Shown: one piece after another, positions 214-60,479 of the stretch
Layout: the number at the start of each line of letters is the position of its first letter
Position numbering within the stretch: the stretch's first letter is position 1
From: Armatimonadota bacterium
GTDB taxonomy: Bacteria; Armatimonadota; Fimbriimonadia; Fimbriimonadales; Fimbriimonadaceae
NCBI GenBank assembly: GCA_022563855.1
Contig: JADFMN010000009.1
Coordinates: forward strand, 62,001 to 126,000
Reading direction: 5' to 3'
Length of the DNA stretch: 64,000 nt
The notes under the pieces: generated by a model
What the model was told of the DNA's origin: nothing
Seen by the model: the letters and a program-made list of their open reading frames with translations, nothing else
Database searches by the model: none
Translations under genes and position numbers: made by a program

Positions 214-1701
214 ATGTCGAACCTCGACGCCCTGAAGTCCAGGATGTACGACCTGAACGCGCTGGAGGCGTCCATGTCGATCTTTGGTTGGGACCAGCGG
301 TGCTTCATGCCGCCGGGCGCGACCGAGGCGCGCGCGAACCACCTCTCCATCCTCCACCGGATGCACCACGAGATGTTCACGTCCGACGAGACGGGGACTC
401 TGATCGACAAGGCTGCGGGTGAGGTCGGTGACGGTGGGGAAGACGGCGCGATGTTGCGCGTGGTCAAGCGCGACTTCGATCTGGCGACGAAACTGCCTGC
501 CGAGTTGGTCGCGAAGAAGAGCATGCTGGCCGCGCTCGCGCACGAAGAGTGGGTGGCGGCCCGCAAGAACAACGATTTCAAGTCCTTCGCGCCGACGCTC
601 GAGAAGATGTTCGAGATCTGTCGTCAAGAGGCAGAGTATCTAGGATACAAAGACCACATCTACGACGCGCTGTTCGATCTGTACGAAGAGGGCGCGACTC
701 AGAAAGACGCGGTGCAGATGTTCGACACGATCCGCCAGCCTTTGGTCGATCTGGTCAAGGAAATCCAGGAGAACGGCCGCAAGATCTCCAACGATTTCAT
801 GACCGGCGAGTGGGCGAAAGAGAAGCAGAGCGAGTTCACAGAGATGATCTCCAAGGCGGTCGGCTTCGACTTCGACCGCGGGCGGCAAGACACCGCGCAC
901 CACCCGTTCTGCGGCGGCTGGTCGGTGAACGACGTGCGGCTGACGACGCGTTTCCTTCCGTTCTTGGGGTCTGCAATCTTTGGCACTTTGCACGAGTCCG
1001 GGCACGGGATGTACGAGCAGGGAAGTCCGGTCGAATGGGATCGCACGCCGCTGGCGGGCGGCGTTTCGCTCGGCCTGCACGAGAGCCAGTCGCGGCTTTG
1101 GGAGAACATCGTCGGGCGGTCGAAGGCGTTCTGGCAGCGGTTCCTCCCGGATTTGCAAGAAACCTTCCCGACGCTATCTTCAATCAGTCTTGACGACTTC
1201 CACCGTGCCGTCAACAAGGTCGAGCCGAGCCTGATCCGCGTCGAGGCGGACGAGCTGACCTACAACCTGCACATCCTCATCCGGTTCGAGATCGAGTGTG
1301 GAATGCTCGAGGGTTCGATGCAGGTCAAGGACCTCCCCGAGATTTGGAACGCTAAGTACGAGGGGTATCTCGGCATCACCCCACCGACGGATTCTGACGG
1401 TTGCCTGCAGGACATCCACTGGTCCGGCGGCTCGGTCGGCTACTTCCCAACCTACAGCATGGGCAACCTTTTGAGCTACCAGATCTGGAAGACGCTGATT
1501 GACGACATCGGCGACCAGGACGAGAACATGGCGAGCGGTGACTTCTCAAAGATCCTCGGATGGCTAGGCGAAAAGATCTACTCGCAAGGCAAACGGTACA
1601 CGCCTAAAGAGTTAGTGCAACGTGTGACCGGCAAACCGATCGGCGCTGAGGATTACTTGACTGGCATCACCGCCAAGTACCGCGCCGTGTACGAGATCTG
1701 A
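214..1701 (+). CDS. M32 family (Taq-type) metallocarboxypeptidase
   Basis: A 495-residue protein, the usual length of M32 carboxypeptidases, which remove C-terminal residues from peptides in the cytoplasm. The zinc motif HESGH is at about residues 260-264. The downstream LHESQSRLWEN block, with the third ligand Glu near residue 290, is diagnostic of the family. Other family blocks are present, such as 'WSVNDVRLTTRF' and 'EADELTYNLHI'. No signal peptide is seen. The ATG at 214 sits after a short gap behind the HD-GYP gene. The extreme 3' end (residues TGITAKYRAVYEI) has a second, diverged copy about 230 nt downstream (see 1854-1928). Confidence 0.95.
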   Translation: MSNLDALKSRMYDLNALEASMSIFGWDQRCFMPPGATEARANHLSILHRMHHEMFTSDETGTLIDKAAGEVGDGGEDGAMLRVVKRDFDLATKLPAELVAKKSMLAALAHEEWVAARKNNDFKSFAPTLEKMFEICRQEAEYLGYKDHIYDALFDLYEEGATQKDAVQMFDTIRQPLVDLVKEIQENGRKISNDFMTGEWAKEKQSEFTEMISKAVGFDFDRGRQDTAHHPFCGGWSVNDVRLTTRFLPFLGSAIFGTLHESGHGMYEQGSPVEWDRTPLAGGVSLGLHESQSRLWENIVGRSKAFWQRFLPDLQETFPTLSSISLDDFHRAVNKVEPSLIRVEADELTYNLHILIRFEIECGMLEGSMQVKDLPEIWNAKYEGYLGITPPTDSDGCLQDIHWSGGSVGYFPTYSMGNLLSYQIWKTLIDDIGDQDENMASGDFSKILGWLGEKIYSQGKRYTPKELVQRVTGKPIGAEDYLTGITAKYRAVYEI

Positions 1702-2019
1702 TCCGAATTAGTCCCCTCCCCCTTGGGGCAGGGTTAGGGAGGGGGTGCTGAACGCGGTAGTTCGACGAGATGTGCCCCTCACCTCAATCCTCTCCCCAGT
1801 CCTTCGTCAGGCTCAGGATGACGGGGAGAGGAGGCTGCGTTCCAATTTGTTGAACCGGCAGACCGATGGGCGGCGAGGCTCTCCTGACCGGCATCACCGC
1901 CAAGTACCGCGCTGTGTACGAGATCTAGTTTGATCCCCTCCCCACTTGGGGGAGGGTTAGGGAGGGGGTGCTGAACGCCGTTAAGTTCTCCGAACTTTGT
2001 CCCCTTTCGCGAGGCCAGG
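1702..2019. repeat. Repeat-filled intergenic region after the M32 gene
   Basis: No intact gene is seen in these 318 bases. Two G/C-tract elements of one family, 'CCCCTCCCC...TTGGGG...AGGGTTAGGGAGGGGGTG', occur at about 1711-1748 and 1934-1970. Each lies directly behind a copy of the carboxypeptidase 3' end. Between them, at about 1790-1835, is a second repeat type, 'CTCCCCAGTCCTTCG...CAGGCTCAGGATGACGGGGAGAGG'. That type returns at 2435-2480 and 35217-35285. Confidence 0.75.
1854..1928 (+). pseudogene. Remnant of a second M32 carboxypeptidase 3' end
   Basis: Twenty-four codons plus TAG encode TGRPMGGEALLTGITAKYRAVYEI. The intact gene ends in TGKPIGAEDYLTGITAKYRAVYEI. The reading frame and stop position are kept. 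Differences are mostly conservative (K/R, I/M, A/G), so the fragment looks like the tail of a diverged paralogue or allele rather than a fresh tandem copy. The bases following both stops are also homologous because they carry the same G/C-tract repeat. There is no start codon and no other trace of the gene. Confidence 0.7.
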
Positions 2020-35295: not shown

Positions 35296-36696
35296 CTAGT
35301 TGCCCTCGTCGATCTGCCTGGGCAGCATCGTGTCAGCGCACGCGAGGTTGTACGCTGTCACGGCAGCAGCTACGCTCGACTGGATCAAGTACGCGTTGAT
35401 CGCGGCCGTCAGCTTATCGTGCTGCGTGTGGTGGATGTACCGATAGTCGGCGACGCCGGTCTCGTTCCAAAAGAATCCCGGAACGCCTACTCGGTTGAAC
35501 GACGCGTGGTCGCTGCCGCCACCGCGGGGCATTCGCTCTGCCACGCGAATCGTCACGGGCATATTCGGGAACGCTTCGTTGAGCGGGTCCGTGGCCTCTC
35601 GCAGCATCGGGGCCATGCTCTCGATGCATCTGAGCCCTCCGCTGTAGTTCGTGCCGCCGTCGTCGACGAGCACCGCGCTGATCATGTCCATCTCATCGGC
35701 GTGCATGGCCACATATCGGCGCGAGCCGTGGAGGCCTTGCTCCTCACCGGTCCACATGATGAACCGGATCGTTCGCTTCGGCTTCGCTCCTGCCGCCATG
35801 AGAAGGCGCGCCGCCTCCAGCGCGACCATCGTTCCCGTTCCGTTGTCGCAAGCACCGGTCGATCCAGGGCCGTCCCAGCTATCGAGGTGGCCGCTGACGA
35901 TCACGACTTCGTCCGGCTTTTCAGTGCCCCGGATTTCGGCGATGACGTTGTAGTTGGCGATCGGTCCCTGTCGCATCGTCTGCCGGAGGTCGAACTCGAG
36001 AATCGTGATTCTGCCTGCGTCGACGTTTGCGGCTGCCGCTTCAAAGTCGCTTTTACGAACGGTGATGCTCACGTCAGTCGGGAGGTCGTCCCATTTGATG
36101 TTGTAGCTTCCGCCGGTGAGAACCAGTTCGTTTCGCGCGCTGGCGACCTTGCCCAGCGCGCCAGCCGCCTTCAGCGCCTGCCAGATTTCGTTTCGTACAT
36201 CACGCTCAGGAAGTCCCTCGGTGCCTCTCGGATTCATCAGTATCCACGCACCGTTGAACCGACCTGTGCGCCGCTTGGCGTCCTCGAGGGTGAGCGGCTC
36301 TCTCACAGTGCGTCCGACCAGCAGCCGGTTGGTGCCAGGCGTCCAAGATCGCGTGGTGAACTCAAAGTTGCGCTGCTCGGGGGCGGTCATGCGGCCGATG
36401 TGGCTCCTTCCGCGGTCGAATCCGACGGGCCACTCGCCCCACTGTTCAAGCTCGACGTTTTCCAGTCCGAACGAGCGGAACTGTGACGCGGTCCACTCGC
36501 ACGCCCTTTGAAGCGCCAGCGAACTCGTCAACCGCGCTCCGATCTGCTCGGTCAGATACTCCAGGTGAGCACGGGTCTGATTGCGGGTCTTGCCCTCGTC
36601 GATGATCTTTGCGATGACGTCTGGGTCGCCTTGGGCCAGGGCGCCAGCCGCCAGACAACTCAGCGCGGCTAGCGCCGCGACTCGAAAACGAACCAT
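35296..36696 (-). CDS. Secreted M28 family peptidase
   Basis: About 466 residues, starting MVRFRVAALAALSCLAAGALAQ (signal peptide). The M28 aminopeptidase/carboxypeptidase zinc ligands are visible: 'VVIVSGHLDSWD' (His, Asp), 'ACDNGTGTMVALEAARLL' (bridging Asp), 'MWTGEEQGLHGS' (Glu-Glu), 'GSDHASF' and 'YIHHTQHDK' (His). It probably acts on extracellular peptides. The longer open frame upstream is non-coding. The gene diverges from the recoded thioredoxin-like gene, with starts 46 nt apart. Confidence 0.93.
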   Translation of the reverse strand: MVRFRVAALAALSCLAAGALAQGDPDVIAKIIDEGKTRNQTRAHLEYLTEQIGARLTSSLALQRACEWTASQFRSFGLENVELEQWGEWPVGFDRGRSHIGRMTAPEQRNFEFTTRSWTPGTNRLLVGRTVREPLTLEDAKRRTGRFNGAWILMNPRGTEGLPERDVRNEIWQALKAAGALGKVASARNELVLTGGSYNIKWDDLPTDVSITVRKSDFEAAAANVDAGRITILEFDLRQTMRQGPIANYNVIAEIRGTEKPDEVVIVSGHLDSWDGPGSTGACDNGTGTMVALEAARLLMAAGAKPKRTIRFIMWTGEEQGLHGSRRYVAMHADEMDMISAVLVDDGGTNYSGGLRCIESMAPMLREATDPLNEAFPNMPVTIRVAERMPRGGGSDHASFNRVGVPGFFWNETGVADYRYIHHTQHDKLTAAINAYLIQSSVAAAVTAYNLACADTMLPRQIDEGN

Positions 36697-36742
36697 GTCC
36701 CGTTTTACCGCGAATCTGCATCCAGAGTTGCGAATGTGAATA

Positions 36743-37303
36743 ATGATTGGTATGAGACATCTCAAAATCGTTCTGTGTCTGGCAGTTGCATTGAGTGCCG
36801 CTGCGGCCTTTGCACAGGCCACTGCGACCGCTCCGCCGAGTTCGGATGAGTTGATGAAGAGCGCGACGGCGAAGGCCGTCAAAGAGAGCAAGAGCGTCTG
36901 GGTCATCTTTCACGCGTCGTGGTGAGGCTGGTGCAAACGCCTCGATAAGTTTATCGAGGAAAACAAGACTGCGCTGAACAAGTACTTTGTGATCGTCCAC
37001 ATCGATGTGCAGGAACGAGGCGAGAAGACAGCGCTGATGAACCCGGGCGGCGAAGAGTACATGATCGCGCTGAAAGGCGAACGCGCTGGCTTGCCGTTCT
37101 ACGCTTTCGTAGATATCAAAGGCAAGATGATCGTAAACGCCATGCAGATGAAGCGCGGCGAAACGATGGGCAACATCGGCCATCCGGTCTCGCCAGAAGA
37201 GGTGACCAACTTTATGAAGATCGTGAAGAAGGCCGCGCCGAAAATCAGCGACGCCGACGCGAAGAAGCTATCGGACTGGCTCCTGAATCAGGACATCGGC
37301 TAG
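36743..37303 (+). CDS. Exported thioredoxin-fold protein with in-frame TGA at the active site (probable selenoprotein)
   Basis: Read through TGA at 36923-36925, this is a 186-residue protein: signal peptide (MRHLKIVLCLAVALSAAAAFAQ), then a thioredoxin-like domain VWVIFHASW-U-GWCKRLDKF. TGA falls exactly where the first Cys of CGWC is expected; the second Cys (C64) is intact. Homology continues without shift to the end ('YFVIVHIDVQERGEK', 'GLPFYAFVDIKGK', the cis-Pro region). A 9-bp inverted repeat starts 14 nt after TGA (36940-36959). Sec is residue 61, or 58 if the better-looking ATG at 36752 is used. A nonsense mutation or sequencing error is the alternative. The stop TAG shares CTAG with convergent sodC. 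Confidence 0.75.
36940..36959 (+). promoter_or_regulatory. Candidate bacterial SECIS hairpin
   Basis: The stem arms CCTCGATAA (36940-36948) and TTATCGAGG (36951-36959) are perfectly complementary, with GT between them. Drawn with 8 pairs, the apical loop is AGUU with G in second position. The loop begins 22 nt after the UGA. Known bacterial SECIS elements have a loop 16-37 nt from UGA and a G among the first two loop bases. The element lies inside the coding sequence, as bacterial SECIS elements do. Confidence 0.65.
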
Positions 37304-37893
37304 CTGCCAGCCTTCGCGATGCCGATTACGCCGTAGCCGATCCGTGCGCCAGCGTTGCCGGTCGGCTGGCCACCGTCGTCCGGCAGCGCGTGGATAACGA
37401 CGCCTCGACCGACGATCGGGTTGACCATTCCTGCAACAGTGATGCCCTGCATCTCCGCCGAGTACTTCGCGACGCCATCAGAGTCTGCGACGAGGTTGCC
37501 CATATCGCCAGCGTGTCTCGTGGAACCGGGTAGAGCGTGCGCGGTGTTGGCTGGGTTGTAGTGACCGCCCATGCTCTTGCCGTCCGTGGAGGTCATGTCG
37601 CCAAGCTCGTGGATGTGGAAGCCGTGCTTCGATCCTGGCTTTAGCCCGCTGATCTCGGCCTCGATCCTAACTCCGCCAGGGACGTCGGTAAACCGCACGA
37701 CGCCAGAGGCCGTGTTGCCAGCAGTCGATTGGATTACGGCGACGGCGCTCGTAATCATTACGCGCTGGCGCCTGCTGGGGTCGATCGCTTGCTGCGCATC
37801 GGCGCTGCCGAAACTGGAGATCGCAGCCCCTACTCCAGCCGAGCCGGCGAGGAGCAGGGCAGTGACGAAACTGTTTGCATGGGAGAGCTTCAT
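37300..37893 (-). CDS. sodC: Cu,Zn superoxide dismutase without the disulfide cysteines
   Basis: 197 residues with a signal peptide (MKLSHANSFVTALLLAGSAGVGAA). All metal ligands and the guiding Arg are in place: H93 and H95 in KHGFHIHELGD, H111 (GGHYNP), H119, H127 and D130 (STRHAGDMGNL), H168 (VIHALPDDGG) and R184 (GNAGARIGYG). The two cysteines that form the structural disulfide in this family are both absent: the GDCT position is GDMT (M100) and the RLACGVIG position is RIGYGVIG (Y187). It dismutates superoxide in the periplasm. It is convergent with the thioredoxin-like gene. Confidence 0.93.
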   Translation of the reverse strand: MKLSHANSFVTALLLAGSAGVGAAISSFGSADAQQAIDPSRRQRVMITSAVAVIQSTAGNTASGVVRFTDVPGGVRIEAEISGLKPGSKHGFHIHELGDMTSTDGKSMGGHYNPANTAHALPGSTRHAGDMGNLVADSDGVAKYSAEMQGITVAGMVNPIVGRGVVIHALPDDGGQPTGNAGARIGYGVIGIAKAGS

Positions 37894-38110
37894 GATCCTG
37901 CCTGTTATTGTAATGTATGAGGCTCCGTGATCGCTCAAGTTCTTGCTGGTCCCCGGACAATGAGCCTCAGGGCCGGTGGCGCCCGACTTTCGGCGCAGAC
38001 CTGGCAAATATACGGGGGGAATTGGGAACGGCTATCGGGGCGGCGCGGTTGAATCGAATCTGGACGCATTTGTCATGGATGCCAATCGGTACGTCCGCGG
38101 AGAGGAAAGA

Positions 38111-55413: not shown

Positions 55414-56565
55414 ATGTCCTGGGTTCGGCGAGCCGCCTTGATCTTCCTGGCGACCGTAGCTGCGGCTAGCGGCCTGGCTCAGAGCCACGCCCAAGAGTTT
55501 TGGCACTCCTCGCTGTCGAGCCTTGCTTTTCAGGAACAGACCGCCCTGCTGATCGACCTCGATTACTGGAATCCGCCTCCGGTATTCCAGTACCGGACGA
55601 GGCAGGGAGTCGCGGGCTTGAGCTTGTTTGGGCATTTCATCGGCAGATCGTACGTCCAGGTCGGCGGCGTGTCGGTTCTTCGGCGACAGATGTCGGTAGA
55701 CGACCTCCGTTCGCGAACGCCGTCGGATCAGATTCTTGACTGGCTAAGGGTGCAGAGCATGTCGACGTTGAAGCGGCTGGTCGATGGCACCTTCGATGCA
55801 TCGACTTTGACCGCCGAAGAGCTGCGGATGTTTCGATATGCGTCGGTGTCAGTCGGCGGTGAACTGGGGTACGTGATGTCAACCAAGTTCGCGGACGAGC
55901 TGGCTGTTCGACTCGTGTTCGTCCCGCAAGTCGAACAGATCGACGCCGAACCAATGCGGCTGTTGCGTCGCGAACCAACCCTGGAGTTTCAGAAGCTATC
56001 GGTTGCCGGACCAGTCGCATTTCCTGCGATGCCAGATGAGGGCATCGATTTTGGTCGGGGGGCCGTTATGACCCTAATGGCGCTGGCAGAGCGGCTTGGA
56101 GGCGACGTGCGGTTCGATCCTCGACTCGCGGGGAGCGTTTACTTTGTCGCCGGCCGAGCATCAAGGGAGGATTGGCTTGCGGCGGTCAACTCTGCCACGC
56201 AGACTCTGGAAACGCGCCCAGCGATCGCCCAAGAGCCGCGAACGAGCGATGTTTTGACCGTGATCGAGCGCGCCTACGTCGGTCGAGCCGACACCGTCAG
56301 CGTCCTAGGCTCTGCATCGGTCGCTGACTGCCTCGCGAGGAAGCAAGTTCAGTTGGGCGAGCTGTTCGACGAGCGATTCAAGGCGTCAACCGAGGTGTTC
56401 CTAGACGAATACGGATTGACTTTGGAGTCCAAGGTCACGCTTTCGCCAGGGTTGATGCTGGTCATCGGAACCCCCGGATTCTCACCCGTTGACACAGGCC
56501 AGCGCGACGCCGCCGGTTACCCGATCATCTTCAACACGCTGCACCGAGTGCGGATCTGGTTCTAG
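55414..56565 (+). CDS. Secreted protein of unknown function, STN-like C-terminal part
   Basis: 383 residues with a signal peptide (MSWVRRAALIFLATVAAASGLAQS). The segment 'RGAVMTLMALAERLGGDVRFDPRLAGSVYFVAG' has the helix-strand look of a small STN-like repeat, reminiscent of the larger orphan at 20155-22398. The rest, including 'LTAEELRMFRYASVSVGGELGYVMSTKFADELAVRLVFVP', is unrecognised. Its stop TAG interlocks with that of the convergent Asp-box gene (CTAG 56562-56565). Confidence 0.6.
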   Translation: MSWVRRAALIFLATVAAASGLAQSHAQEFWHSSLSSLAFQEQTALLIDLDYWNPPPVFQYRTRQGVAGLSLFGHFIGRSYVQVGGVSVLRRQMSVDDLRSRTPSDQILDWLRVQSMSTLKRLVDGTFDASTLTAEELRMFRYASVSVGGELGYVMSTKFADELAVRLVFVPQVEQIDAEPMRLLRREPTLEFQKLSVAGPVAFPAMPDEGIDFGRGAVMTLMALAERLGGDVRFDPRLAGSVYFVAGRASREDWLAAVNSATQTLETRPAIAQEPRTSDVLTVIERAYVGRADTVSVLGSASVADCLARKQVQLGELFDERFKASTEVFLDEYGLTLESKVTLSPGLMLVIGTPGFSPVDTGQRDAAGYPIIFNTLHRVRIWF

Positions 56566-59450
56566 TCGCGGATCTCCCATTCGATCGTCTTTTGGGTATC
56601 GCCCACCGTGATCTCGATCGTGTATTCCCCAGGCGGCAAGTAGCTTGGCCGCGAGTATGGATCAGCGAGCGCTTCTTGCAGCGTCTTCGGCTTCTCAATC
56701 TTCTTCGGGTCGGCTGACTCGCGCGCTTTCACCTGTAAGCCGAAAGTGAAGAAGTTGAACCCCGGTGTAACGACCAAAGCTTGCTCAACGACCGCCTTGC
56801 CGTCGCTGTCGAGCACTCGCAACGATCCATCGCCGCTAACACGCGACCAGAACCTGCCGTCCACCTCCGGCTCGCGCGGTTCCGACTTGTCCCACGGCTG
56901 TTTGCGATCGAACCCCCACCGCTCGCTGAACCGAAGAGAGTCGACTTCCCAAATGTACAAGTCGCTGCCGAGGATCTCGTCGGTAAGATCTGCCACGGGC
57001 TCCACGTCTACGATCCATACCGACCGTGCGTGCGTCGCGATCACCATTTCGCGCTCGCGCTCTTGAATGACGAGGTCGTGAACCGGAACGTGGGGAAGTC
57101 CGCCGCCATAAACCTGCCAGCTTTCACCGGAGTCCATGCTGAAGAAAACGCCCATGTCGGTGCCGACGTAGAGCACGTTCTCCAGGTCGGGGTCTTCACG
57201 GATCGTGTTGACCGGCTCGAACGGGAGGTTGCTCGCGATGCTCTCCCAGGTCTTGCCGTAGTCGGTAGATTTCCACACATACGGCGACCACTCGTCTTGG
57301 CGGTAGCCGTTCTGCGTGCAGTAGACGGTTTCCTCGTCGTGCCGGCTTGCGATGATGCGCGTCACCCATCGGTCGGTAGCCGTCGTCGGGATCGCATCCC
57401 AAGTTACGCCGCCGTCTTTCGTTACATGGATCGAGCCGTCGTCTGCGCCGGCGTAGATCACACCGAATTTGAACGGGCTTTCATCGAGCGCCGTGAGCGT
57501 CGAAAACGGCACGTCTCCTCGCGGCAGCTCTTTGGTCAGATCGGGGCTGATCGCCTCCCACTTCCGGCCCTGATTGAACGAGCGGTGAACGAACTGCGAG
57601 CCGATGTAGATGATGTCCGAGTGGTGCTTGCTGATCACGATCGGAGAGATCCAGTTGAATCGCAGCCCCCGCCCCGAAGGCCGCGCCGACCAGCGTCGCC
57701 CTGCCGCTTGATCGATCGCGCTGTGCGAGCCGAACTGCGACGCGACGTAAACAACGTCGCCGTCGTTGCGCGGATCGACGGCGATCATGCTGCCGTCGCC
57801 GCCGGCGATCCCTGTCCACCTGGTGATCGGGTCGATCCCCTGCCGGTAGTTGCTCGGCCCTTTGATCGTGCCGTTGTCCTGTAGGCCGCCGTAGATGTTG
57901 TAAGGGCTCTTGTTGTCTACAGCGATCGTGGTGTACTGGCCGACGGGCACGTTGTTCAAGTGTCGCCATGTTTTGCCCGCGTCCATGCTGAGGTACGGCC
58001 CCCCGTCGTTGCCGTCGATCATGCGATTCGGATTCCGATCGTCGATCCAGTAAACGTGGCGATCAACGTGGTTGCGCGGCGCGATGGATTCCCAAGACCT
58101 TCCTCCGTCCTCCGACTTCAAGAGGCGCGTGCCGGTGATGTAAAGCTCGTCGGGGTTCTCTGGATGTACCGTCACGCGACCGCAGTAGTAGCCGAGCATC
58201 GACCCGACCGTCGGCGATACCAGCTCCCAAGTCCGTCCGCCATCGTCGCTGCGCCAAACTTGGCTGTTGGTTCTGCGCAAGGCGAACAGGTTTGGATTCT
58301 CCTTCAGCAGCAGCTCTCCGAGTTCAACCACGCCAAGGTCGCCGTCCTTGATCTGCTTGATCACATCGTCGACGTCCTCATCATCCGGCAGCTTGTTTCT
58401 CAGGAAGGTCTTCAACTCATCTTCGGGGACTTGCTTGAGCAGGCCGTCGCTCATTCTGCGAAGGCGCCACGCCGTCAGCTTTCCGTCCGGCACGCGCTCG
58501 TCCATCCACTCAGTGTCTTCGTACGCCGACTGGTTGTCGATGTAGACGTAAACGACGTTCGGATCGCTAGCGCTGAACGCCACGCCGGTGCGTCCCATGG
58601 CGTCTCCCGATGGGAGGCCTTTGACCACCGCCCACGTATCGCCGCCGTCTTCTGACAAGTAAAGGGCGCTACCGGGGCCGGACTCCAACATGTTCCAAGC
58701 ACGTCGGTCGCGATGCCACGCCGCTGCAAATATGCGGTCGGGGTCGCTCGGATCGATCGCAAGATCGATGACGCCCGTCCATTCGTCGATTGCCAAGACG
58801 TGCTCCCAAGTTTCGCCGCCGTCCTTTGTTCGATAGACTCCACGGTCGTGGCCTTGGCTGTACAGCGCACCGTTGGCTGCGACGAAGACCGTGTTCGGAT
58901 CGTTCGGGTGGATCGTGACCCTGCCGATGTTATGTGTCTCCTCCAATCCCATGTGCTGCCACGTCGCGCCACGGTCTACGGATTTGAAAACGCCGGTGCC
59001 GCTGTAGTGCGTGCGCGCGCTGTTGTTCTCGCCTGTCCCGACCCAGATCGTCCGCCCGTCATCCGAAACATCGGTGTCCCCGATGGCGAAACTGCTTTCG
59101 AAATCGAACAGCGACGTCCACGTGATGCCGTCGTCCTCCGTGCGCCAGAGCCCTCCGCTCGCGTAACTGATGTAAAGCGTTGTCGGTTCGCTCGCAGGAC
59201 TGTCGACGTCGACGACCCGACCGCCCTGATGCTCCGATCCGACGCTCCGCCACATAATCTTCTGGAACGTTGAGCTGCGCTCCATCTCCATGCGCTTCTC
59301 AAACTCTCGAAGGCGAAGCTTCTGCGACATGCCGGTGACAGAAGGCGTGTGGTACTTCTCGATCTCCTCAGTTTTGGACATCGGGTAACTGACGGGAATG
59401 CGCTGTTGGACGGCGTTCAAGGCAGTAAGGAGGAGCAGGCCGCTAATCAT
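56562..59450 (-). CDS. Sortilin/VPS10-like Asp-box (BNR) repeat protein
   Basis: 962 residues with a signal (MISGLLLLTALNAVQ). At least ten Asp-box repeats (S/T-x-D-x-G-x-T-W) can be read: 'TEDDGITW', 'SVDRGATW', 'TKDGGETW', 'SEDGGDTW', 'SDDGGRTW', 'SEDGGRSW', 'SMDAGKTW', 'TKDGGVTW', 'STDYGKTW' and 'SMDSGESW'. Two propellers of the sortilin/BNR kind are implied, as in 'glycosyl hydrolase' annotated secreted proteins of many bacteria. A helical insert lies around residues 320-390, and a C-terminal PPGEYTIEI domain ends it. An enzymatic role is not shown. Confidence 0.9.
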   Translation of the reverse strand: MISGLLLLTALNAVQQRIPVSYPMSKTEEIEKYHTPSVTGMSQKLRLREFEKRMEMERSSTFQKIMWRSVGSEHQGGRVVDVDSPASEPTTLYISYASGGLWRTEDDGITWTSLFDFESSFAIGDTDVSDDGRTIWVGTGENNSARTHYSGTGVFKSVDRGATWQHMGLEETHNIGRVTIHPNDPNTVFVAANGALYSQGHDRGVYRTKDGGETWEHVLAIDEWTGVIDLAIDPSDPDRIFAAAWHRDRRAWNMLESGPGSALYLSEDGGDTWAVVKGLPSGDAMGRTGVAFSASDPNVVYVYIDNQSAYEDTEWMDERVPDGKLTAWRLRRMSDGLLKQVPEDELKTFLRNKLPDDEDVDDVIKQIKDGDLGVVELGELLLKENPNLFALRRTNSQVWRSDDGGRTWELVSPTVGSMLGYYCGRVTVHPENPDELYITGTRLLKSEDGGRSWESIAPRNHVDRHVYWIDDRNPNRMIDGNDGGPYLSMDAGKTWRHLNNVPVGQYTTIAVDNKSPYNIYGGLQDNGTIKGPSNYRQGIDPITRWTGIAGGDGSMIAVDPRNDGDVVYVASQFGSHSAIDQAAGRRWSARPSGRGLRFNWISPIVISKHHSDIIYIGSQFVHRSFNQGRKWEAISPDLTKELPRGDVPFSTLTALDESPFKFGVIYAGADDGSIHVTKDGGVTWDAIPTTATDRWVTRIIASRHDEETVYCTQNGYRQDEWSPYVWKSTDYGKTWESIASNLPFEPVNTIREDPDLENVLYVGTDMGVFFSMDSGESWQVYGGGLPHVPVHDLVIQEREREMVIATHARSVWIVDVEPVADLTDEILGSDLYIWEVDSLRFSERWGFDRKQPWDKSEPREPEVDGRFWSRVSGDGSLRVLDSDGKAVVEQALVVTPGFNFFTFGLQVKARESADPKKIEKPKTLQEALADPYSRPSYLPPGEYTIEITVGDTQKTIEWEIRD

Positions 59451-59474
59451 TGCTTTTAGTATGCCTGATCGAAC

Positions 59475-60479
59475 TCAAAGTTGCAGAAGCTCGGCGACAA
59501 CTCGTTCTGCCGCTGCCTTTCCTCGACCGCGAGGGCTCGGCAAATGTCGGTCAAAAAAGTGCGGCATGCCCCAGTCCGGCGGGATCGCATCCGGGATTTC
59601 GTCCGAGAACTCGATCCCGGCGAGCGTCATGACCGCCGCTGCCCACATCCGCGGTACGCAGGACTGCTCGTAGCCGCCCCCGCCGACGGCTACAGTCGGC
59701 AGGCCGAGGTCTTTTACTTGCTGCACGGCTGCCAGCCACTCCTGCGCCGAGACCTCGAGGTTGCCGAGCGGATCGAGAAAGTGCGCGTCGGTGCCCATTT
59801 GCAAAACGATCGCCTGCGGCTCAAACGCTTTCACGCGCGCGATCACTCCGTTTTCAAACGCCCAGAGCCACACGTCTCCAGTCGTCCCGGCTTCGAGCGG
59901 AACGTTCACCGCCGAGCCCTCCGCTCCGTGCTCGTGTACGAAGCCTGTGCCGGGGAACAGGCTTACGCCCGATTCGTGGATCGAACACGTCAAGACCGAC
60001 GGATCGTCATAAAAGACGCTTTGCACTCCGTCTCCGTGGTGCAGGTCGATGTCGATGTACGCAACGCGCTCAAACGAGTCGCGAAGTATCGAGCAAGCGA
60101 TCGCTGGGTCGTTGAAGACACAGAAGCCGCTCGCCGCCGATCTGTGCGCGTGGTGCAGTCCGCCAGCGATCCCAAACGCGAGACGCGCACCGTCGCGAAC
60201 GTCCGTTGCAGCGTTGACGGTTCCCGATACGTAAGCCCTCGAGGCGTTGTACATTCCGAGGAACGGCGGAGTGTCGGTGCTGTGAAACCCCCATTGGCCG
60301 AGGTTCCCGCGATCCAGGGCGTGTGTGTCTGCATCGAGCTGCCGCACAACGTCGACGTACTCGATGCTGTGCACCCGACAAATGTCCTCGCAGGTCGCCT
60401 GGCGGGGGAGCTGCGGCTCAAAGCCCGGCACGCACGCTCCCAGCACGGCCAGCGTTCGCTCCAGGCGCAACGGTCTCAA
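59475..60479 (-). CDS. AcuC-type histone-deacetylase-family protein
   Basis: 334 residues as called from TTG 60479. Metal-site motifs are 'GGLHHAHRSAASGFCVFND' and 'YIDIDLHHGDGVQ', with 'GGGGYEQSCVPRMWA' at the end. Zinc-dependent deacylases of this class act on acetyl-lysine proteins such as acetyl-CoA synthetase, or on small amides. The true N-terminus probably lies upstream: the frame continues to DPDSLLYDFGPDHPLRP, a conserved AcuC start region, but no ATG, GTG or TTG precedes it before TAG. The likely start triplet, if any, is ACG (60534-60536) or ATC (60549-60551). Confidence 0.85.
   Translation of the reverse strand: MRPLRLERTLAVLGACVPGFEPQLPRQATCEDICRVHSIEYVDVVRQLDADTHALDRGNLGQWGFHSTDTPPFLGMYNASRAYVSGTVNAATDVRDGARLAFGIAGGLHHAHRSAASGFCVFNDPAIACSILRDSFERVAYIDIDLHHGDGVQSVFYDDPSVLTCSIHESGVSLFPGTGFVHEHGAEGSAVNVPLEAGTTGDVWLWAFENGVIARVKAFEPQAIVLQMGTDAHFLDPLGNLEVSAQEWLAAVQQVKDLGLPTVAVGGGGYEQSCVPRMWAAAVMTLAGIEFSDEIPDAIPPDWGMPHFFDRHLPSPRGRGKAAAERVVAELLQL

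Follow-up and report, generated by a model that had tools for sequence, protein, structure and literature searches.

Given that a single TGA interrupts an otherwise continuous reading frame at a thioredoxin-type active site, we questioned whether this codon ends the gene or is read as selenocysteine (Sec). The frame lies in the window, by which we mean the whole stretch of 64,000 nucleotides that was analysed, equivalent to C9:62001-126000 of the source genome, G000 (3.18 Mb in 22 contigs, 96% complete). Three features of the locus frame the question:

36743..37303, plus strand: predicted coding sequence of an exported thioredoxin-fold selenoprotein (Thioredoxin_7-like), 186 residues with a TAG stop, from translation with TGA as U, Pfam, the family alignment and AlphaFold.
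36923..36925, plus strand: in-frame TGA putatively read as selenocysteine, residue 61 and first position of UGWC, from alignment with the TGC/TGT codons of 67 relatives and with the TGA of six other genomes.
36932..36934, plus strand: codon (TGC) for Cys64, the resolving cysteine, invariant in the family.

The original prediction had described one continuous frame interrupted once, by a TGA where the first Cys of a CGWC site would stand, and direct reading and translation of 36743-37303 confirmed it: 186 codons precede the TAG, and the only TGA is codon 61, which replaces the first Cys codon of a thioredoxin WCGWC/CGWC site in the context HASW-U-GWCKRLDKF. Its statement that TGA otherwise serves as an ordinary stop in this DNA is consistent with the sequence, as at a histone-deacetylase-like gene that ends at 59477. 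A second ATG at 36752 (MRHLKIVL...) provides an alternative start, from which Sec would be residue 58; judging by the orthologues, which begin about there, this may be the true start. The frame continues for 125 codons beyond the TGA with no frameshift, and the portion downstream of the TGA is under selective constraint, with dN/dS after the TGA of 0.22-0.49 in related pairs and third-position change in excess. Identity to 13 aligned relatives is 32-50%, and invariant positions lie both upstream and downstream of the TGA. Standard gene callers would truncate such a gene at the TGA or begin it only from a GTG past the active site, so the protein is easily missed.

We then considered what the full-length product would be, for which two further features are relevant:

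36752..36814, plus strand: MRHLKIVLCLAVALSAAAAFA, a probable signal peptide with cleavage ahead of QA, read by eye.
37094..37096, plus strand: codon of Pro118 (GLPF), invariant in the family, the presumed cis-proline facing UGWC.

The protein matches the Pfam family PF13899 (Thioredoxin_7) with 43 bits against a cut-off of 27; PF00085 follows with 35 bits, and PF13098 stays below its own cut-off. An AlphaFold model made with an alignment of 33 sequences has a mean pLDDT of 91.5 and a thioredoxin-type fold, in which a strand spans residues 51-57 and a helix spans residues 62-73 directly after U61, and the best PDB matches found by Foldseek are the disulfide isomerase 3fk8 and DsbH (2ju5). From knowledge of the thioredoxin fold we take Pro118 to act as the cis-proline opposite the active site. 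The C-terminal half is family-specific (NIGHPxxPEE...). At the other end, the model places a hydrophobic helix at residues 6-23 with lower confidence and relatives share this N-terminal character, suggesting that the protein is exported and works outside the cytoplasm.

The locus is flanked by two genes on the opposite strand, which correspond to the divergent peptidase and convergent sodC that had been described from the sequence and which both have Pfam matches:

35296..36697, minus strand: divergent flanking gene for a peptidase of family M28 (PF04389, 118.8 bits), syntenic in the same-genus genome.
37300..38007, minus strand: convergent flanking gene for an exported Cu/Zn superoxide dismutase, sodC (PF00080, 131.2 bits), syntenic in the same-genus genome.

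The stop codons of the selenoprotein gene and of sodC overlap (CTAG). We considered whether the gene works together with sodC or the M28 peptidase and rejected the idea: these flanks are conserved only within the genus, and because synteny is seen only there, no function can be read from the neighbours.

To place the TGA in its family we read each locus of the 74 members in Armatimonadota, of which 67 have TGC or TGT at the active-site codon and seven have TGA. The seven belong to G000 (the window), G049, G031, G012, G098, G181 and G156 and represent several families of the phylum; in all seven the frame is otherwise intact and the resolving Cys is kept, and the codon is never TAA or TAG. The homologues thus bear out the earlier proposal that Cys should stand at this site, and a search for decayed frames among relatives returned either an intact TGA frame or Cys in the related genomes. 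A chance origin is excluded because TGA occurs in seven separate genomes at exactly one column, at which TGC or TGT stands in 67 members. The forms in G181 (locus L167) and G156 (locus L168) come from distant families within the phylum, and that of G156 reads UGLC rather than UGWC. One relative, G001, is a same-genus genome, the Fimbriimonadaceae MAG CRAIB_MAG79, by which G000 itself is assigned to Fimbriimonadaceae; the others are MAGs of Armatimonadetes, Fimbriimonas and Chthonomonas. Cys homologues (the FHASWCGWCKK family) extend beyond the phylum to Bacteroidota, Acidobacteria and other groups, as found with the pattern [HD]ASWCGWC, which recovers Cys forms and has Sec forms outside its reach.

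If the TGA is decoded as Sec, the genome should hold the corresponding machinery, and the search for selA, selB, selD and tRNA-Sec that accompanied the original prediction found all four in G000. The tRNA-Sec scores 74.2 bits and is called by ARAGORN as tRNA-SeC with anticodon UCA (tca); selB lies on C7 (345 bits, cut-off 242) and selD on C4 (359 bits, cut-off 125), and selA, at C9:60253-61563 (513 bits, cut-off 268), ends 438 bp before the window start on the same contig. An Rfam search over the 64-kb window gave no match, and the tRNA-Sec sits elsewhere in the genome. Across the TGA genomes, selB is present in seven of seven and selA in all five covered by the selA search, and six of the seven yielded a tRNA-Sec, the search of G049 (77% complete) having returned none. 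The association of TGA with selA is not significant (5/5 TGA versus 35/55 Cys genomes tested, Fisher p 0.12), its weakness arising from the many Cys users that are Sec decoders as well; the co-occurrence is consistent with Sec decoding and by itself no evidence for it. The selD gene (G000:C4:338766-339668, locus L017) has an in-frame TGA of its own in CAG-U-ASK, where SelD is known to carry Sec, and a strong hairpin follows this TGA. It is a second selenoprotein in G000 and acts as a built-in positive control.

Bacterial SECIS elements are usually intragenic. One would be expected within the coding sequence here as well, because the gene's stop overlaps that of sodC, and a hairpin of this type was located shortly after the TGA:

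36940..36959, plus strand: SECIS-type hairpin CCUCGAUA-AGUU-UAUCGAGG, from RNA folding, a constraint scan, synonymous recoding and pair counts.

The hairpin has an 8-bp stem and a 4-nt AGUU loop 22 nt past the UGA, with the loop G at position 2; the RNA folds with -16.4 kcal/mol (z -2.2) and the local segment with -11.2 kcal/mol. The published bSECIS model calls for a loop of 3-9 nt, a stem of 4-16 bp, a G in the first two loop positions, a spacing of 16-37 nt and an MFE of <= -7.5 (PMC13188914), and the hairpin of the window's gene satisfies all of these constraints. When TGA and Cys genes were scored under bSECIS-like constraints that permitted loops of up to 14 nt, the TGA genes scored higher (Mann-Whitney p 2.5e-5, uncorrected for relatedness). 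Synonymous recoding gave a clear signal for the window's gene, whose hairpin is more stable than 99% of recodings (p 0.010), and a modest one for the six other TGA genes (p 0.06-0.25, none significant alone).

Closer inspection of the seven hairpins showed two designs. The AGUU loop at +22 is common to G000, G049 and G031, and G012, G098, G156 and G181 have in common a stem of 6-7 bp that carries a UGGAY loop at +16. Compensatory pair changes occur in both designs, two of them in G181, as counted over few sequences that in part are the Cys orthologue, and shifting the partner by 1-3 bases destroyed the pairing in both designs, again with small counts.

These observations bear directly on other accounts of the TGA. 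If a Cys gene had suffered a nonsense mutation or been missequenced at this codon, the locus would be a young pseudogene or an artefact, and the TGC of the same-genus orthologue, a single base away, speaks for this; yet the exact codon is TGA in six other genomes whose intact frames are under constraint, it is never another stop, SECIS-type hairpins follow it, and selB is present in all TGA genomes. We therefore consider mutation or error very improbable, the independent TGA genomes having gone most of the way to refuting it. The UGA could instead be decoded by a suppressor or near-cognate tRNA that inserts, for example, Trp or Cys in place of Sec. Against the alignment of a catalytic Cys in 67 members, and with a dedicated UCA-anticodon tRNA-Sec, selA, selB and selD in the genome and a SECIS-type hairpin on the transcript, such decoding seems to us extremely improbable, even though near-cognate tRNAs are established to read through UGA at a low level.

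A further account accepts that Sec is inserted but sees the gene mainly as a selenium switch, in which a 60-residue truncated product is the normal one at low selenium and the full protein is minor. It is established that all UGA-Sec codons compete with termination; the truncated product would nonetheless be without the active site, and the part after the UGA is constrained, and we give this arrangement very little credence. We are thus left, with high confidence, with a gene for an exported thioredoxin-fold thiol/selenol oxidoreductase in which the UGA at codon 61 is read as Sec by way of the downstream hairpin. The computed frame, decoding machinery, Cys/Sec column, hairpin and fold underlie this conclusion, and the UGWC selenoprotein put forward at the outset is strongly supported by the machinery, the Cys/TGA column, the SECIS-type hairpin, the compensatory changes and the same-genus Cys orthologue.

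Under this reading as a Sec-containing oxidoreductase, the hairpin downstream of the UGA, inside the coding sequence, would recruit SelB with Sec-tRNA(UCA) and thereby place Sec at codon 61. The mature protein would reside outside the cytoplasm, where Sec61 of the UGWC centre may act as the attacking nucleophile and Cys64 as the resolving residue, so that disulfide bonds in exported proteins would be reduced or isomerised; both the direction in which the protein acts and its reaction partner are predictions. Recharging would probably fall to a DsbD-type membrane electron carrier, and G000 encodes a DsbD membrane domain (C1:241350, 138 bits).

The same-genus genome provides a close comparison for the Sec form. 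In G001 the orthologue (locus L023) shares the M28/sodC neighbourhood and has TGC at the codon aligned to 36923-36925, and the genome contains tRNA-Sec and pieces of selA. The stem of the hairpin is kept at 7 bp (CUCGAUG-UUUU-CAUCGAG) and the AGUU loop is absent. In the family tree G001 falls among G000, G049 and G031 (99% bootstrap, SH-aLRT 77), and G012/G098, G156 and G181 are placed elsewhere. Remnant SECIS structures have been described in Cys genes derived from Sec genes (PMC1794560), and owing to this precedent, the retained stem and the position in the tree, G001 likely represents a Sec-to-Cys change with a remnant SECIS.

The tree needs five state changes, of which at least three are forced by well supported branches. 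We lean slightly toward a history in which Sec was gained from Cys more than once in the Armatimonadota family, with two SECIS designs arising on the same protein stretch, and was lost again in the window's genus, in G001. If this is true, the family is a natural experiment in the change of a Cys codon to a Sec codon and back. Its close Sec/Cys pairs, one of them within a genus at the same locus, allow a direct test of the benefit of selenium to a periplasmic thioredoxin, as well as a test of how SECIS elements rise and fade.

UxxC thioredoxin-like selenoproteins are already known, and the PF13899-type subfamily is an addition to them. Among those listed are thioredoxin (PF00085) and thiol:disulfide interchange protein (PF13098) (PMC13188914), which share with the window's protein the thioredoxin fold, a CxxC motif whose first Cys is replaced by Sec, and a majority of homologues with Cys; the protein described here differs in having PF13899 as its best model, a C-terminal half of its own and an Armatimonadota host. 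The Trx7/PDZ (seleno)protein NF041199 likewise combines a Thioredoxin_7 domain with Sec, but it is a CxxU protein with a PDZ domain (PMC13188914), whereas the window's protein has the UxxC order, lacks a PDZ domain and reaches 11.2 bits where the cut-off is 300. With the TsoB rhodanese/DsbD fusion-like model NF045694 it shares similarity in the thioredoxin-like domain (28.8 bits), far from the cut-off of 805, and it has the thioredoxin domain only, with no rhodanese or membrane part and one Sec rather than two. DsbH (NF043050; 2ju5) and 3fk8, its best fold matches, are also thioredoxin-fold disulfide oxidoreductases but use Cys, not Sec, and against the DsbH cut-off of 190 the protein reaches 28.4 bits. 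The Cys orthologues in Armatimonadota, Bacteroidota and others are of the same family, near full length and about 35-53% identical, with TGC or TGT for TGA. None of the curated NCBIfam selenoprotein models accepts the protein, PF13899 is not named in the 2026 review (PMC13188914), and a literature search of papers outside subscription found none on selenoproteins of Armatimonadota or on a PF13899-type subfamily. With this gene, a poorly studied phylum gains an exported redox selenoprotein.

A read-through scan for further Sec genes in the window yielded only adjacent genes sharing a frame, or antisense frames, and these were rejected as candidates. At 56562-60470 on the minus strand, the histone-deacetylase-like gene, whose TGA stop is at 59477, has a sortilin/VPS10-like beta-propeller gene behind it in frame (both named by eye), and this stretch looks like two adjacent genes and not read-through. 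Outside the window, at G000:C9:22256-22486 (locus L056, frame 895-1884, plus strand), a TGA stands at the first Cys of FYADW-U-GFCKK in a protein with a DUF2092-type N-terminal part and a thioredoxin domain, a probable second thioredoxin-like selenoprotein in G000.
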